NCBI RefSeq assembly: GCF_014645895.1
Contig: NZ_BMMP01000014.1
Location: 124,001-188,000 of the forward strand
Direction of reading: 5' to 3'
Length of the DNA: 64,000 nt
Source: Streptomyces daqingensis
Lineage (GTDB): Bacteria > Actinomycetota > Actinomycetes > Streptomycetales > Streptomycetaceae
Part shown: positions 43,928 to 49,062 of the stretch, one piece after another
How the letters are laid out: each line of letters opens with the position of its first letter
Position numbering within the stretch: the first letter of the stretch is position 1
Notes under the pieces: model-generated
The model's input: only the letters and a program-made list of their open reading frames with translations
The model's database searches: none
What the model was told of the DNA's origin: nothing
Position numbers and translations under genes: made by a program

Positions 43928-44911
43928 GACGGGCCTTCCTGTCGTCTAGCAGAACTGGTGGCCCAGTGAGAAGTAGCACCTACTCGATTGCATGCTCAAC
44001 TGAATATGATGCAGGGGGTAATCGGCGTGACACGCAGGGCTGCGAGCGAACGCTTTGGCCGGACACAGGCGGCGCCCGGTACGAGTGGACTCGTTCGGCC
44101 GCCTCAGCGCTCCCGGCGGGAGTTTCCCCTTCGGCACTGGATCTTCACTTCTTCTTCACGCAGGCCCATGACGTGCGATCTCTCGCAGACGCGGTGACGA
44201 ATGTCGCGATTCAGCGGAAGACGAGGAACCTGCATCAGATCCGCCCCGTCGCGATTGACGGGAAAGTAAGGAAGAAGTCGATAATTACGCACAACGACTT
44301 CTTTGTCTTTCAGGGCTGTCAACTCGCCTTTATCCGCACCTGAGCGAAGGCCGGAGCCGTACACGAGAGAGGCGGCCGACTGCCGCACGCCGAGCGGATC
44401 CGGCCAATGTCACCGTCACGGGGCGGGCGACTCTGTGAAGACGCGGTGATCGGCGAAATGCCGACGAAAGGTTCAGAACGGCGAGGCGACGCCAGAGCCC
44501 GTACACCGGGCCCGTCGTGATTGCCGATCGCTGCGCGCACGCCTGTCCACCCCGCCACGACCGGGTCATTCCCCTCGCCCGTCCGCCGGGAAACCCCCGT
44601 GACCACTGCGCGAACGAATCTCCCCCGGCCCGTCAGGAGCGCCGCTCCCGAGGCGAATTCCCGCCACGTGACCGCAACGCGCAGCGGTGTCGGCGACAAG
44701 CCCCGACGCCCGCATGACTGCCTTTTCCGCACAGTCGAGCGGCATGATGCGCAGTGGGGGAACCGGGGGGCCGGACTGCCAACCAAGAGTGGTGACGCAT
44801 GCGAATACGGCTACTGCCCAGCACCCCTGAGAAAAAGGCGACACAGTTCACAGGTGGATTACTGAATCTTTCCGGCTCACTCGCGTTCCAGGCTGGCTAC
44901 ACTCACGCCCC
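43928..44911. other. Long lower-GC region upstream of the mat-like operon
   Basis: Almost 1 kb without a convincing gene. Open frames on both strands (for example 43966-44343 plus and 44104-44388 minus) have codon use unlike the chromosome, no ribosome sites and no family pattern. The part from about 43970 to 44340 is visibly richer in A and T than the rest of the window. It contains an inverted repeat at 44272-44303 and a repeated GTCGCGATT (about 44204 and 44249). It is most easily read as a long regulatory leader, or as decayed DNA. Confidence 0.5.
44272..44303. repeat. Inverted repeat in mat-like upstream region
   Basis: AAGAAGTCG (44272-44280) and CGACTTCTT (44295-44303) are perfect inverted 9-base arms around a 14-base AT-rich centre (ataattacgcacaa). 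The sequence after it is T-rich (TGTCTTTC). It could be a terminator for an upstream transcript or a binding site; distance to the operon (about 600 bases) argues against a simple operator. Confidence 0.5.
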
Positions 44912-45301
44912 ATGCGATCCATGAACGACAGCCGTCGGAGGCGTGAAGACCAGAATCACCCGATATTCATTGCCAGTTCAGGTAGGCGCCGGAGACTCGT
45001 GCGCTATGCGGCAGTGACCATCGGGTGTGCCTGCACCGGGTATCTCGCCATCTTCGCCGCTGTGTTCGGGGGTCTGCAGGAGTCCACGGGCGAGAACCCG
45101 CCGCGCATGGACGAGCCGCTGCCCAGCAGTTCCTCCCAGAAGGACTCGGACGTTCCCGCGGGTGCGCAGTTCCCCGCGCGTTCGGAGTCGCCCGGAGCGA
45201 ACCCCTCGCCCAAGTCCTCCCAGGACCAGGGCCGTGACCCCTCGCCGTCCCCGACCGCACCGGCCACCTCCTCGGCCCGTCCCGGCGGCGCGAACAGGTG
45301 A
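44912..45301 (+). CDS. Small membrane-anchored protein preceding MatB-like synthase (MatA position)
   Basis: A 129-aa protein. Residues 1-30 are basic and cytoplasmic (RRRREDQ, GRRRRLVR), about 31-53 form one membrane helix (AAVTIGCACTGYLAIFAAVF), and the rest is a Ser/Pro/Gln-rich, extracytoplasmic, probably unfolded tail. Its stop overlaps the start of the large gene by 4 bases (GTGA), so the two are made together. In Streptomyces the matA gene stands in this position and is needed with matB for the aggregating glycan. I cannot confirm homology by sequence, so no symbol is given. ATG 44921 is an alternative start. Confidence 0.75.
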   Translation: MRSMNDSRRRREDQNHPIFIASSGRRRRLVRYAAVTIGCACTGYLAIFAAVFGGLQESTGENPPRMDEPLPSSSSQKDSDVPAGAQFPARSESPGANPSPKSSQDQGRDPSPSPTAPATSSARPGGANR

Positions 45302-47379
45302 GCCGTCACGCGCTGCGCCGGGACCCGCGGGGGCACTGGCTGCTGCTGCTGCTCTTCCTCCCCGTGGTCATCGCCGCGCTCGTCTTCGAGGGCTGGACGA
45401 ACCACGAGGTCGACGACGCGCGCAACAAGCGCCCGTGCACGACTCCCATGCCCAAGGCCGCGGACACCGGCGACCCGGTCCTGCGCCTGAACGACGGCAC
45501 CATCCAGACCGCCTCCATGCCGCCGCGCACGGCCGCCCTCACCTTCAACGGCGGCCCCGATCCCGTATGGACGCCCCGGGTGCTGGACCTGCTGCGCAAG
45601 CACCGCGCGCAGGCCACCTTCTTCATCTACGGGTCCCAGGCGACCCGCCACCCGGAGCTGGTGCGCCGGATCCGCGCCGAGGGCCACGAGATCGGCTCGT
45701 ACACCTACACGGGCGGCGACCTCGGATCGGCCTCGCCGTTGCGCTCCAAGATGGAGCTGTCGCTGACGCAGACGGCGCTCGCCGGCTCGGCCGGCGTCAA
45801 CACGGGGCTGCTGAGGCTGCCGCACACGACCGCGGCGGACACCCTGTGCGGCGAGTCCTGGGACGCCGCCGTGCGCAGCGCCGAGCAGGGCTATCTGATC
45901 GTCGCGGCGGACCGCAAGTCGCGGAAGCCGTCGCAGGGCGTGGTGCGCCAGTACAGCAACTCGGACCTCGGTTATCACGAGGCTGAGCAGTTGCTGCGCA
46001 ACCGGAACGTGGAGAGGTTCACGACCGTCACAGACGGGCTGGGACGGCCCTCCCCCACCACGACCGTCTCCGCCGCGGAGAGGCTGCGGGGCGAGGGCCT
46101 GATCTGGGCGAGGATGCTCGGCGCCTTCTTCACCAGCGCGATGGCGTGGGCCCTCGTGGCGGCGGGAGGGCTCAGCCTTCTGAGGCTCATCCTGCTGCTG
46201 ATGTTCGCGCGGATGCACACGAACCGGCTGCAGCGGTTCCGGCCGGGCTCGCCGTGGCTGAGGGAGGTGAACGAACCGGTGACGGTGCTTGTGCCGGCCC
46301 ACAACGAGGAGGCGGGCATCGAGTCGACGGTGCGTTCGCTGCTGGCGTCCACGCATCCGTACCTGCAGGTGATCGTGATCGACGACGGCTCGACCGACGC
46401 CACCGCCGACATCGCCGAGCGCATCCAGGACCCGCGGGTCCTCGTCATCCGGCAGGGCAACACCGGCAAGCCGGGCGCCCTCAACACCGGTCTGGCGCAC
46501 GCGAGGTCGAACATCGTCGTGATGGTCGACGCGGACACCGTCTTCGAGCCGGAGGCCCTGCACCAGCTCGTCCAGCCGCTCGCCCACCCCGCGATCGGCG
46601 CGGTCAGCGGCAACACCAAGGTCGGCAACCGGCAGAAGCTGCTGGGCAAGTGGCAGCACCTGGAGTACGTCTTCGGCTTCAACCTCGACCGGCGCATGTT
46701 CGAGGTGCTGGAGTGCATGCCGACGGTCCCGGGAGCGATCGGCGCCTTCCGCCGCGACGCCCTGCTGGGCATCGGCGGCGTGAGCGAGGACACGCTGGCC
46801 GAGGACACCGACCTGACGATGGCCCTGTGGCGTGCCGGATGGCGCGTCGTCTACGAGGAGACGGCCATCGCCTGGACCGAAGTGCCCGAGACCCTGAGCC
46901 AGTTGTGGCGGCAGCGCTACCGCTGGTGCTACGGCACGCTGCAGTCCATGTGGAAGCACCGGCGGGCCGCGCTGGAGGTCGGGCCGGCAGGGCGCTTCGG
47001 GCGCCGCGGCCTGAGCTACCTCACGCTCTTCCAGATCGCGCTGCCTTTCGCCGCGCCCGTCGTCGACGTGTTCTTCCTGTACGGCCTCTTCTTCCGCCAC
47101 CCCCTGGAGGCGCTGGGCGTCTGGCTCGGCTTCCTGGTCATGCAGATGGTGACCGCCGCGTACGCGCTGAGGCTGGACAGGGAGCCCCTGCGCGAGCTGT
47201 GGTCGCTGCCTCTGCAGCTGTTCGTCTACCGGCAGCTGCTCTATTTCGTGATCATCCAGTCAGTGGTGACGGCGTTGCTGGGTAACCGGCTGAAGTGGCA
47301 GCGCATGCGCCGGTCGGGCACCGCCGACCAGCATCTGCTCAGCGAACCCGCCAAGCAGCGCACCCTGTCGTCGAAGTGA
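45298..47379 (+). CDS. matB: MatB-like bifunctional protein: degenerate NodB domain plus GT2 glycan synthase
   Basis: A 693-aa membrane protein. One helix at about 15-33 precedes an extracytoplasmic NodB/CE4 fold (about 75-270), helices near 285-320, a cytoplasmic GT2 domain (328-550) and C-terminal helices. GT2 residues are intact: VLVPAHNEE, IDDGSTD (Asp 362), VDADT (411-413), EDTD (502-505) and QRYRW (539-543). The NodB domain keeps AQATFFIYGSQATRHPELVR and AEGHEIGS. Its catalytic motifs are gone: TFDDGPD reads TFNGGPD (82-88), the HxxxH pair reads Tyr 135/Gly 139, and the later RxPY, W and LHD motifs are altered. MatB of Streptomyces makes poly-N-acetylglucosamine for hyphal aggregation. 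Here synthesis is plausible and deacetylation is not. Confidence 0.85.
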   Translation: MSRHALRRDPRGHWLLLLLFLPVVIAALVFEGWTNHEVDDARNKRPCTTPMPKAADTGDPVLRLNDGTIQTASMPPRTAALTFNGGPDPVWTPRVLDLLRKHRAQATFFIYGSQATRHPELVRRIRAEGHEIGSYTYTGGDLGSASPLRSKMELSLTQTALAGSAGVNTGLLRLPHTTAADTLCGESWDAAVRSAEQGYLIVAADRKSRKPSQGVVRQYSNSDLGYHEAEQLLRNRNVERFTTVTDGLGRPSPTTTVSAAERLRGEGLIWARMLGAFFTSAMAWALVAAGGLSLLRLILLLMFARMHTNRLQRFRPGSPWLREVNEPVTVLVPAHNEEAGIESTVRSLLASTHPYLQVIVIDDGSTDATADIAERIQDPRVLVIRQGNTGKPGALNTGLAHARSNIVVMVDADTVFEPEALHQLVQPLAHPAIGAVSGNTKVGNRQKLLGKWQHLEYVFGFNLDRRMFEVLECMPTVPGAIGAFRRDALLGIGGVSEDTLAEDTDLTMALWRAGWRVVYEETAIAWTEVPETLSQLWRQRYRWCYGTLQSMWKHRRAALEVGPAGRFGRRGLSYLTLFQIALPFAAPVVDVFFLYGLFFRHPLEALGVWLGFLVMQMVTAAYALRLDREPLRELWSLPLQLFVYRQLLYFVIIQSVVTALLGNRLKWQRMRRSGTADQHLLSEPAKQRTLSSK

Positions 47380-47439: not shown

Positions 47440-49062
47440 ATGAAGGACCCACACGACCAGTGGGCCGAGGATGGCCGCGGTTCGCGCGCCGGGGCCCGTC
47501 GGGGCCGTGCCGCCCGTACCGGGGGCCGTCGCAAGCGCGACGACTTCGACACGGGCGAGTACGCCGTGGGCGACCCCGTCAACGTGGTGAGCCCGGCCCG
47601 GCCCGGAGGCCCCGTGACGTATCCGCCGAGGCCGGAGGAGCGGAAGCGCTCCGGCGGCGAGGTCATCCAGGGCGAGGCAGTATCCGGGCGCACCACGCCG
47701 CTGCCCGCCCAGGAGCCCCCGGCTGCCGGGGCGGCCGGGCAGGGAACGCGACGGAGTGGCGGCATGCCGCCCGGTGCGGCCCAGCCCGCGGGTCCTCCCG
47801 GCCACGTCCAGCCCGGGATGCAGCCCGGAGTCCAGCCCGGTGCGGCACAGCCCGGGACGCACCCCGGTGCGATGCAGCCCGGCGCACATCCCGGTGCCGT
47901 CCAGACAGGGAGCCATTCCTCAGCCGTCCAGCCCGTGGGCCGGCACGGTGCCGTCCAGCCGGGCGGCCCGGGCGGGCCCGGCACTCCGGCCTTCCCGCCG
48001 GGAGGGGACGGCCCGGGCGGTCCGGGTGACGGCTTCTCCTCGCGCTTCGGCCCCGAGGCCCCCCGCGCCGGCCGGCGTCCCAAGCGCCGCCGCCCGCTGC
48101 GCCGTGCGGTCGTCATCCTGCTCGCCACGGTCATCACGGGTTCCGTGGGGACGTACGCGTGGGCGGAGACGAAGCTGCAGCGCAACGTCGATCTCAACAA
48201 GTTCGACTCCCGGCCCCCGCCCGGCAAGGGCACCAACTACCTCATCGTGGGCTCCGACAGCCGTGAAGGCCTCTCCGAGGAGGACAGGAAGAGGCTCAAC
48301 ACCGGTGTCTTCGGGGGCCGTCGCACCGACTCGATGATCCTGGTGCACAAGGGTGTGAACGGCACGACGATGGTCAGCTTCCCGCGTGACTCGTGGGTCA
48401 CCCTCCCCGGGTACACCCACCCCTCCACGGGAAAGACCTCGGGGCCCGTGAAGAACAAGCTCAACGCGGCCTTCTCGCAAGGCGGTCCGGAGCTGCTGAT
48501 CAGCACCATCGAGCAGAACACGGGCCTTCGGATCGACCACTACGCGGAGATCGGGTTCGCCGGCTTCGTGAACATCGTCGACGCCGTGGGCGGCGTCCCG
48601 ATGTGCGTCGACCGGAACATCAAGGACAAGGACTCGGGCGCCAACCTGAAGAAGGGCTGCCAGAACCTCGACGGTGCGGAGGCCCTGGCCTTCGTCCGCC
48701 AGCGCAAGCAGGAGGCCAAGGGCGACCTGGGCCGGACGCAGAACCAGCAGAAGTTCCTCTCGGCACTCGCCAAGAAGGCGGCGGACCCGGACACGGCCCT
48801 CGACCCCGGTGCCGTGTATCCCGCCGTGAGCGCCGGGCTCGACACCCTGATCGTCGACCAGGGCATGAGCCTGAAGGAGCTGAGCACCATGCTGCGGACG
48901 GTGCAGGGCATCTCGGACGGCGGCGGCAAGCGGATCAACGTCCCGACGAAGGGCCCGATCCGTACCCGCAAGGGCGACGCGGTGGCCTGGAACTCTGCTC
49001 AAGCGGAGAAGCTCTTCGGCCAGCTGAAGCGGGATCAGAGGGTGACGGTCCGCTCGCAGTAG
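47440..49062 (+). CDS. LytR-CpsA-Psr (LCP) family wall-polymer ligase
   Basis: A 540-aa membrane-anchored protein. Residues 1-222 are cytoplasmic and unfolded, with a basic start and a Gln-Pro-Gly repeat tract at about 109-185. A membrane helix at about 223-243 (AVVILLATVITGSVGTYAWA) is followed by the extracellular LCP domain: YLIVGSDSREG (Arg 275), GGRRTDSMILVH (Arg 294-295, Asp 297), SFPRDSWVTLPGY and FVRQRKQEAKGDLGRTQNQQ. LCP enzymes join lipid-linked glycopolymers to peptidoglycan. It starts 60 bases after the MatB-like gene with GAGGGGAG upstream, so it may attach the glycan made there (inference). Confidence 0.92.
   Translation: MKDPHDQWAEDGRGSRAGARRGRAARTGGRRKRDDFDTGEYAVGDPVNVVSPARPGGPVTYPPRPEERKRSGGEVIQGEAVSGRTTPLPAQEPPAAGAAGQGTRRSGGMPPGAAQPAGPPGHVQPGMQPGVQPGAAQPGTHPGAMQPGAHPGAVQTGSHSSAVQPVGRHGAVQPGGPGGPGTPAFPPGGDGPGGPGDGFSSRFGPEAPRAGRRPKRRRPLRRAVVILLATVITGSVGTYAWAETKLQRNVDLNKFDSRPPPGKGTNYLIVGSDSREGLSEEDRKRLNTGVFGGRRTDSMILVHKGVNGTTMVSFPRDSWVTLPGYTHPSTGKTSGPVKNKLNAAFSQGGPELLISTIEQNTGLRIDHYAEIGFAGFVNIVDAVGGVPMCVDRNIKDKDSGANLKKGCQNLDGAEALAFVRQRKQEAKGDLGRTQNQQKFLSALAKKAADPDTALDPGAVYPAVSAGLDTLIVDQGMSLKELSTMLRTVQGISDGGGKRINVPTKGPIRTRKGDAVAWNSAQAEKLFGQLKRDQRVTVRSQ

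Follow-up and report, generated by a model that had tools for sequence, protein, structure and literature searches.

Why would a polysaccharide synthase keep a deacetylase domain that has lost its catalytic residues? This question is raised by a gene in a 64,000-nucleotide stretch of the Streptomyces daqingensis genome (contig NZ_BMMP01000014.1, positions 124,001 to 188,000 of the forward strand; the whole stretch is called the window here, and positions are counted from its first letter). The gene encodes a membrane synthase of glycosyltransferase family 2 (GT2) preceded by a NodB-type domain of carbohydrate esterase family 4 (CE4). An initial annotation had called the product MatB-like, with intact GT2 motifs and a deacetylase domain in which every catalytic motif was gone, had suggested that the protein may now serve as a glycan-binding or export platform for an undeacetylated polymer, and had proposed finding out when the motifs were lost and whether the domain is under purifying selection. 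We find that the loss is shared by a large clade of synthases, in which the domain appears to have been retained as a pseudoenzyme. The parts of the gene on which the argument turns are the following.

45298-47379, plus strand: GT2 polymer synthase with an N-terminal, predicted pseudo-CE4 (NodB) domain; 693 aa, GTG start; 109 relatives counted, 119-member clade.
45331-45405, plus strand: N-terminal transmembrane helix (residues 12-36), a helix in the model, most of it at a predicted local distance difference test score (pLDDT) <50.
45520-46005, plus strand: predicted pseudo-CE4 (NodB) domain, residues 75-236 (Pfam Polysacc_deac_1 at 74-184; domain model; median ratio of non-synonymous to synonymous substitution rates, dN/dS, 0.25).
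45547-45552, plus strand: Asn84-Gly85, replacing the catalytic-base Asp and the metal Asp (position 85 is Gly in 119/119 clade members and Asp in 64/64 others).
45700-45714, plus strand: Tyr135-TYT-Gly139, replacing the metal-binding HxxxH (clade alignment).
46276-46935, plus strand: GT2 catalytic domain, residues 327-546 (the best stretch for Pfam GT2 families; motifs DDG, DAD, EDTD and QRYRW).
46984-47277, plus strand: C-terminal membrane helices, residues 563-660 (model helices of medium to low confidence).

The same genome contains, on contig C25, a second full-length relative (L002, 50% identity) in which TFDDGPD, HTFNH, RPPY, DW and LMHD are all intact, and against which the window domain was compared residue by residue. 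TFDDGPD of this paralogue reads TFNGGPD in the window protein, HTFNH has become Tyr135-TYT-Gly139, RPPY has become RLPH, a deletion has removed the DxxDW loop, and LMHD is no longer present. The base and metal Asp of motif 1, the HxxxH of motif 2, the Trp loop of motif 4 and the LHD of motif 5 that characterise active CE4 enzymes are absent from the window protein, while Arg173 and Pro175 of RxP are retained next to a Tyr that has changed to His. The claim that every CE4 motif was lost is therefore right for the metal ligands, the Trp loop and LHD but too broad for the remainder, since Arg173 and Pro175 are kept here and the base Asp84 persists in 106 of 119 clade members. Judged from its residues, the domain is without any metal ligand, and it very probably has no deacetylase activity.

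The extent of the loss was read from 183 proteins that were aligned and counted, 119 of them in the degenerate clade (mostly Streptomyces) and 64 outside it. Of 142 loci confirmed in one contig scan with peptide patterns from the window protein, 80 were kept, which by construction are close relatives; further relatives were found by searching genomes of the genus (199), the family (150) and the class (394), sets that overlap in part and gave at most 30 loci each, and 33 regions were added by hand, of which only part entered the alignment. The 64 proteins outside the clade are a selection of the matches rather than all of them. High-scoring segment pairs <450 aa were left out of the alignment, and L001 (the window itself) and L002 (the same gene as L137) were left out of the counts, which are not independent because some loci look like one strain present in two collections (e.g. 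L042 and L100).

Across this set the losses follow a consistent pattern. Gly replaces the metal Asp in every clade member, the window protein included, which excludes a one-base error; the reading frame of the synthase is open throughout, in agreement with the earlier view. The second metal His is missing from 119/119 (Gly in 113, Asp in 4, Ala in 1, Glu in 1), and gaps occupy the columns of the Trp loop and LHD in all 119. More variation is seen at the first metal His, position 135 (Asn 62, Tyr 43, His 9, other 5), and at the catalytic base, position 84 (Asp 106, Asn 13, with Asn in the window protein), and Arg173 is retained in 118/119. The closest relatives of the window protein share its lost residues, and no activity data were found for any of them. 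In the 64 other relatives, by contrast, the metal Asp and both metal His are present in 64/64 and the LHD His in 61/64. Counted among these 64 are three proteins of another actinobacterial family (L171, L172 and L175; f17) with a separate, partial loss, in which the base Asp is Glu in two, the Trp and LHD are lost and the metal residues are kept.

On a GT2-only tree of 63 rows (a quick search with a midpoint root and without bootstraps), loss of the metal Asp maps to one change, and the Shimodaira-Hasegawa-like approximate likelihood ratio test assigns a value of 97 to the clade and of 98 to its grouping with the sister pair, L144 and L145, whose catalytic motifs are fully intact and which have two cysteines each. 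As to when the motifs were lost, the metal Asp appears to have gone once, long ago, in an ancestor of the whole clade. From the states found in the sister pair and in five early-branching members we infer that the cysteine pair came first, followed by loss of the metal Asp, the second His, the Trp loop and LHD, then by change of the first His to Tyr or Asn, and finally by loss of the base Asp in some lines, including that of the window. The donor-site motif is DAD in 114/114 core members and DGD in the five early members and 63/64 others. The change to DAD, the link to a neighbouring LCP gene described below and the fixation of Cys47 mark one same node of the tree, a coincidence that is no proof of linked function.

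Several members depart from the common form. L129 (reverse strand, ~3.9-5.3 kb) is a clade member with the promoter element, the GT2 part and the LCP neighbour, in which the first helix and the outer domain are missing from the frames read; its genome holds another full copy, and L129 may be a pseudogene. L117 and L134 each showed one in-frame TGA in the genome search, either possible errors or decaying copies. G265, G331 and others from the genome searches contain GT2 relatives of ~60% identity that align only from residue 230-240, and these may combine the same synthase with a different outer domain.

Next to the loss stands the evidence that the domain has been kept. Among clade members the median dN/dS is 0.25 for the dead domain, 0.148 for GT2 and 0.376 for the linker (478 pairs), compared with 0.316 for CE4, 0.118 for GT2 and 0.448 for the linker in intact relatives (66 pairs); these are Nei-Gojobori values from overlapping pairs, carry no test, and leave out pairs outside 80-98.5% identity or with synonymous changes that were saturated or very few in number. 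On so simple a measure, constraint on the dead domain seems no weaker than on living CE4 domains, and the purifying selection about which the initial annotation had asked is supported. Moreover, a domain model built from 25 sequences (pLDDT 81.9) has the NodB fold and superimposes on the chitin deacetylase 2y8u with Z 19.7 and a root-mean-square deviation of 2.5 over 178 aligned residues (VIA-align), and many residues of buried type are invariant across the 25 aligned domains. Because a single shared loss is combined with a preserved fold and a median dN/dS of 0.25, the domain is best described, on alignment and model, as a retained pseudoenzyme, and a retained non-catalytic role for it is likely.

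The clade has also acquired residues of its own, among them two cysteines that could form a disulfide.

45436-45438, plus strand: Cys47, one of two clade cysteines, a possible disulfide partner; Cys in 114/114 core members.
45847-45849, plus strand: Cys184, the second clade cysteine; Cys in 114/114 core members, 5/5 early members and 2/65 other rows.

Cys184 is seen in L144 and L145 too, and at the Cys47 column only two of the five early members have Cys, with L144 and L145 having one nearby in a different column; the outer region of 61/65 other rows has no Cys at all. A Cys47-Cys184 disulfide is possible. Among polar residues, Gln218 is invariant in the clade (119/119) and found in 0/64 others in the counts listed, which have Leu, Met or Thr there; Tyr137 is present in 119/119 clade members versus 9/64 others, and Arg217 in 100/119. 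A replacement metal site was sought in the 183-protein alignment and rejected, as no Asp, Glu or His column was both invariant in the clade and absent elsewhere, although Asp181 and Asp205 are enriched (each 111/119 in the clade versus 31/64 and 20/64 in the others) and Asp39 is present in 95% of the core clade versus 15% of the others.

If the deacetylase part appears dead, the polymerase part looks alive. The DDG, EDTD and QRYRW motifs of GT2 are present in 119/119 clade members, and together with the DAD of the window protein they bear out the earlier description of a synthase with intact-looking GT2 motifs. The whole-chain model is of modest confidence (mean pLDDT 64.9), which does not suffice to position the outer domain above the membrane exit, but it does match hyaluronan and cellulose synthases. 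On the motifs and this model match, the polymerase part therefore looks active and processive. The top-scoring named family for the GT2 part is PgaC/IcaA (TIGR03937), with 195.8 bits, under the equivalog cut-off of 422.3.

The name MatB fits the architecture and not the gene. An outer NodB domain joined to a membrane GT2 with QxxRW, as the MatB architecture demands, is present, but an intact MatB-type protein is encoded on another contig of the same genome, C25, at a locus where a MatA-position protein precedes it and an acyltransferase-like protein follows. The published MatB locus has matA before the synthase and the acetyltransferase gene SCO2961 after it, according to the available excerpts of PMC5972031 and PMC4391728. 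The MatB name of the contig C25 gene rests on this architecture and these neighbours rather than on an alignment to SCO2962. Since a separate intact MatB-type gene exists, the window gene is, on present comparison, a paralogue of MatB and not MatB itself, and on the GT2 tree the intact paralogue (L137) is placed apart from the window clade. The genome also encodes three further proteins that match the NodB part; these and the MatB-type protein could deacetylate in trans, so the polymer need not stay fully acetylated.

Counted among the matches listed, the clade occurs in 31 of 199 Streptomyces genomes searched. In 17 of these 31 a MatB-type match of 47-50% is listed, and in three more the intact MatB protein has a relative of 72-75%, whereas a search with the intact MatB protein (E 1e-60) gave only the dead form in 11; for MatB-type genes sharing a genome with the clade, the motifs were read in L133, L134 and L137. 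The dead form can thus, as far as these matches go, be the sole synthase of its kind found in a genome and stand without MatB. This weakens another candidate role that we considered, that of an obligate silent partner of MatB.

Downstream of the synthase lies the gene with which the core clade is linked.

47440-49062, plus strand: LCP-family glycopolymer transferase, 540 aa (Pfam LytR_cpsA_psr, 158 bits).

Its protein contains RTDS, PRDS and RQRKQ..GDLGR stretches that were aligned to TagV/yvhJ structures. An LCP gene follows on the same strand in 104/108 core loci, its aligned start 66-1091 nt away, and the remaining four loci end at contig edges 162-427 nt past the synthase; it is also present in two core members, L193 and L197, that belong to different genera of the family. 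When open reading frames (ORFs) of at least 90 aa were clustered in 68 of the 80 pattern-found loci, the only groups in at least 12 loci were the synthase frame, with its overlapping and antisense frames, and the LCP gene (62 loci), in a procedure blind to small, fast-changing neighbours such as a MatA-like gene. None of the 17 intact loci examined has an LCP match, and eight of them have an acyltransferase. The identity matrices of synthase and LCP protein correlate with r 0.92 over 98 loci, a value reached in 0 of 2000 permutations. One clade genome, G032, has no LCP match at the threshold used for whole genomes; there the synthase sits close to the end of a contig, and the LCP match that accompanies it is partial (L110).

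Upstream, two features precede the synthase.

44895-44903, plus strand: promoter-like, -10-like element GGCTACACT, 17 nt before the MatA-like ATG.
44912-45301, plus strand: small membrane protein resembling MatA, 129 aa, with a hydrophobic stretch; its stop overlaps the synthase start (GTGA).

The 129-aa protein has no Pfam match and is matched only weakly by the MatA-position protein of the paralogue (35% over 66 aa, E up to 1e-3, tblastn). By tblastn, which a fast-changing MatA could have escaped, a MatA-like match was found in 40 of 104 relatives having 700 nt of upstream sequence and none was detected in 64; these counts were preferred to those of a cruder scan for upstream transmembrane ORFs, which gave candidates in 27/108 loci. 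The MatA-like match tracks residue 135, being detected in 35/35 loci with Tyr135 and in 0/58 with Asn135, a pattern that a single event on the tree may explain and that is not evidence for contact. Members of the Asn135 subclade such as L048 and L063 have, behind the same promoter element, a short ORF (61 and 43 aa) that does not evidently resemble MatA. The element GGCTACACT itself occurs 14 times in 1.03 Mb of related loci and is found in 14/105 upstream regions, and TACACTC in 52/102 upstream regions versus 0.3 expected.

Taken together, we favour, with some reservation, a processive synthase of MatB/PgaC/IcaA type whose conserved pseudo-deacetylase outer domain guides or docks the chain, perhaps for attachment to the wall. 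In such a scheme a UDP-sugar, most likely UDP-N-acetylglucosamine (UDP-GlcNAc), would be polymerised on the cytoplasmic side and the chain extruded through the membrane helices; the dead NodB domain, outside above the exit, would hold or guide it without deacetylating it, and might then hand it on or dock to a partner, for which the LCP protein encoded next to it is a candidate; the polymer would in this way leave acetylated or become fixed to the wall. The parts of this scheme differ in strength. That the domain guides the chain or docks to a partner is put forward tentatively, with slightly more doubt than belief, and for a functional partnership between the synthase and the LCP protein we consider the case evenly balanced. 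Quite unlikely, in our judgement, is the most specific version, a two-part machine in which an acetylated GlcNAc-type chain is caught by the dead NodB domain at the membrane exit and bonded covalently to peptidoglycan by the LCP enzyme.

Several results weigh against guidance towards an LCP partner. Position 176, in the former active site, is variable in the clade, as is position 135, which is weak for a strict ligand pocket. The flanks read around the five clade members that branch off early contain no LCP match, so the link to LCP was not the reason why the dead domain arose. The correlation of the two matrices is what would be expected for any pair inherited together, and relatedness and duplicate strains inflate both it and the linkage count. 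With the LCP domain as query, a match is found in 99/101 Streptomyces genomes, mostly with 50-57% identity; matches of 56-60% also occur in some genomes that lack the synthase clade (G018, G031, G035, G051, G060 and G089); the LCP protein is not clade-specific, and only its place beside the synthase is. Finally, LCP enzymes are known to move lipid-pyrophosphate-linked glycans, whereas GT2 synthases are generally taken to release chains free of lipid, so that a direct hand-over of the chain from synthase to LCP protein is without known chemistry.

Other explanations have to be set against this proposal. The outer domain could be a structural spacer or stabiliser, a folded cap that the membrane synthase needs and that contacts neither glycan nor partner. 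The preserved fold with its invariant buried-type residues, the cysteine pair already present in the intact sister and the variability of positions 135 and 176 would all suit such a cap, which we nevertheless regard as unlikely: polar residues rare or absent outside the clade have become common or invariant within it (Gln218 in 119/119, Arg217 in 100/119), and L129, without an outer domain, keeps the promoter element and the LCP gene, which would make the cap dispensable if that copy is functional and not the pseudogene it may be. Nor is it probable that we are looking at a spare copy in decay or an assembly error. Lost motifs, an intact MatB-type gene in the same genome and a few relatives with an in-frame stop or without the outer domain are what decay would leave behind, but the window frame is open, stops occur in only two listed clade places (G157 and one fragment of G022), dN/dS is 0.25, one loss is common to 119 proteins and the dead form is the only such synthase found in 11/31 genomes. 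With a clade-wide pattern and purifying selection both against it, a pseudogene or sequencing error is vanishingly improbable.

The two remaining alternatives concern chemistry. Possibly the domain still catalyses another reaction, without a metal or with other ligands, for which the NodB-fold allantoinase PuuE, described as metal-independent in the available part of PMC10967932, provides a precedent. The retention of Asp84 in 106/119 and Arg173 in 118/119, the invariance of Gln218 and Tyr137 and the enrichment of Asp181 and Asp205 could be read in this way; the window protein itself, however, lacks Asp84, none of the 119 members has the second metal His, the LHD His or the Trp loop, 110 are without the first metal His, and the alignment offers no Asp, Glu or His that every clade member has and all other proteins lack, so that we consider other chemistry very unlikely. 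It is also conceivable, though rather doubtful, that the polymer is not poly-N-acetylglucosamine (PNAG), the synthase having changed its product and the deacetylase having died once its substrate vanished. DAD in 114/114 core members, against DGD in the early members and 63/64 others, and the placing of this shift on the same node as the LCP link are compatible with a new product, as is the lack of a detected MatA-like gene in 64/104 loci, MatA being needed for PNAG in S. lividans according to the portion of PMC5972031 available. On the other side, PgaC/IcaA remains the best-scoring named family (196 bits, below the 422-bit cut-off), the early members have a dead CE4 while DGD is still in place, DAD versus DGD alone predicts no sugar, and a fast-changing MatA may have been missed.

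Compared with known systems, the proposed guiding synthase is closest to MatB (SCO2962/SLI_3306), which has an outer NodB domain, a membrane helix and GT2 in the same order in the excerpts available (PMC5972031, PMC4391728); further likenesses are a MatA-like upstream protein in the window and 50% identity to the MatB-type paralogue. It differs from MatB in lacking the metal site, Trp loop and LHD, in its clade cysteines and in the LCP gene downstream, and the acyltransferase that lies beside 8/17 intact loci examined is not found beside the window gene. PgaC/IcaA is alike in being the best-scoring named family for GT2, but the score is below the cut-off, the NodB domain is fused, and DAD replaces the DGD of the window's own nearest relatives. 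Among CE4 pseudoenzymes, which share a NodB fold with lost catalytic residues, the domain model matches BA3943 (7bkf, Z 17.9), BA0150 (4m1b, Z 17.0) and EcCDA (2vyo, Z 16.6). The title of PDB entry 7bkf labels BA3943 a pseudoenzyme, and the part of PMC10967932 available describes BA0150 as a pseudoenzyme, EcCDA as probably inactive, and CE4 pseudoenzymes as separate proteins. Whereas these three are not fused to a synthase, as far as their titles and descriptions go, the window domain is fused to an intact-looking synthase and conserved in a large clade. Two inactive Bacillus NodB proteins support the cell wall, according to the accessible text of PMC4505593. For LCP transferases the phosphotransfer has been described, and those of Streptomyces attach wall glycopolymers, in the sections available of PMC11481543. 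The neighbour protein resembles TagT/U/V and CglA in that it aligns to TagV; in contrast, the window pairs its LCP gene with a GT2-NodB synthase, a pairing not met in the excerpts of literature examined. Within the same partly accessible, open-licence literature, we found no published description of this clade, or of an intact synthase with a conserved but dead deacetylase domain and an LCP gene next to it.

Deacetylation is usually taken as the step that makes PNAG-type polymers sticky and retained, and the clade provides a natural experiment through which non-catalytic functions of the outer domain in such synthases can be studied. It also carries a warning for annotation: Polysacc_deac_1 scores 80 bits on residues 74-184, against a cut-off of 23.1, so that the window protein passes the Pfam deacetylase threshold and could be labelled a bifunctional deacetylase. 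An intact paralogue in the same genome makes the question testable in a laboratory Streptomyces. If the two-part machine were real, it would be a way of attaching to the wall a polymer whose synthesis uses no lipid carrier, and the pseudo-deacetylase would be an adaptor that turns a free matrix polymer into a wall polymer.

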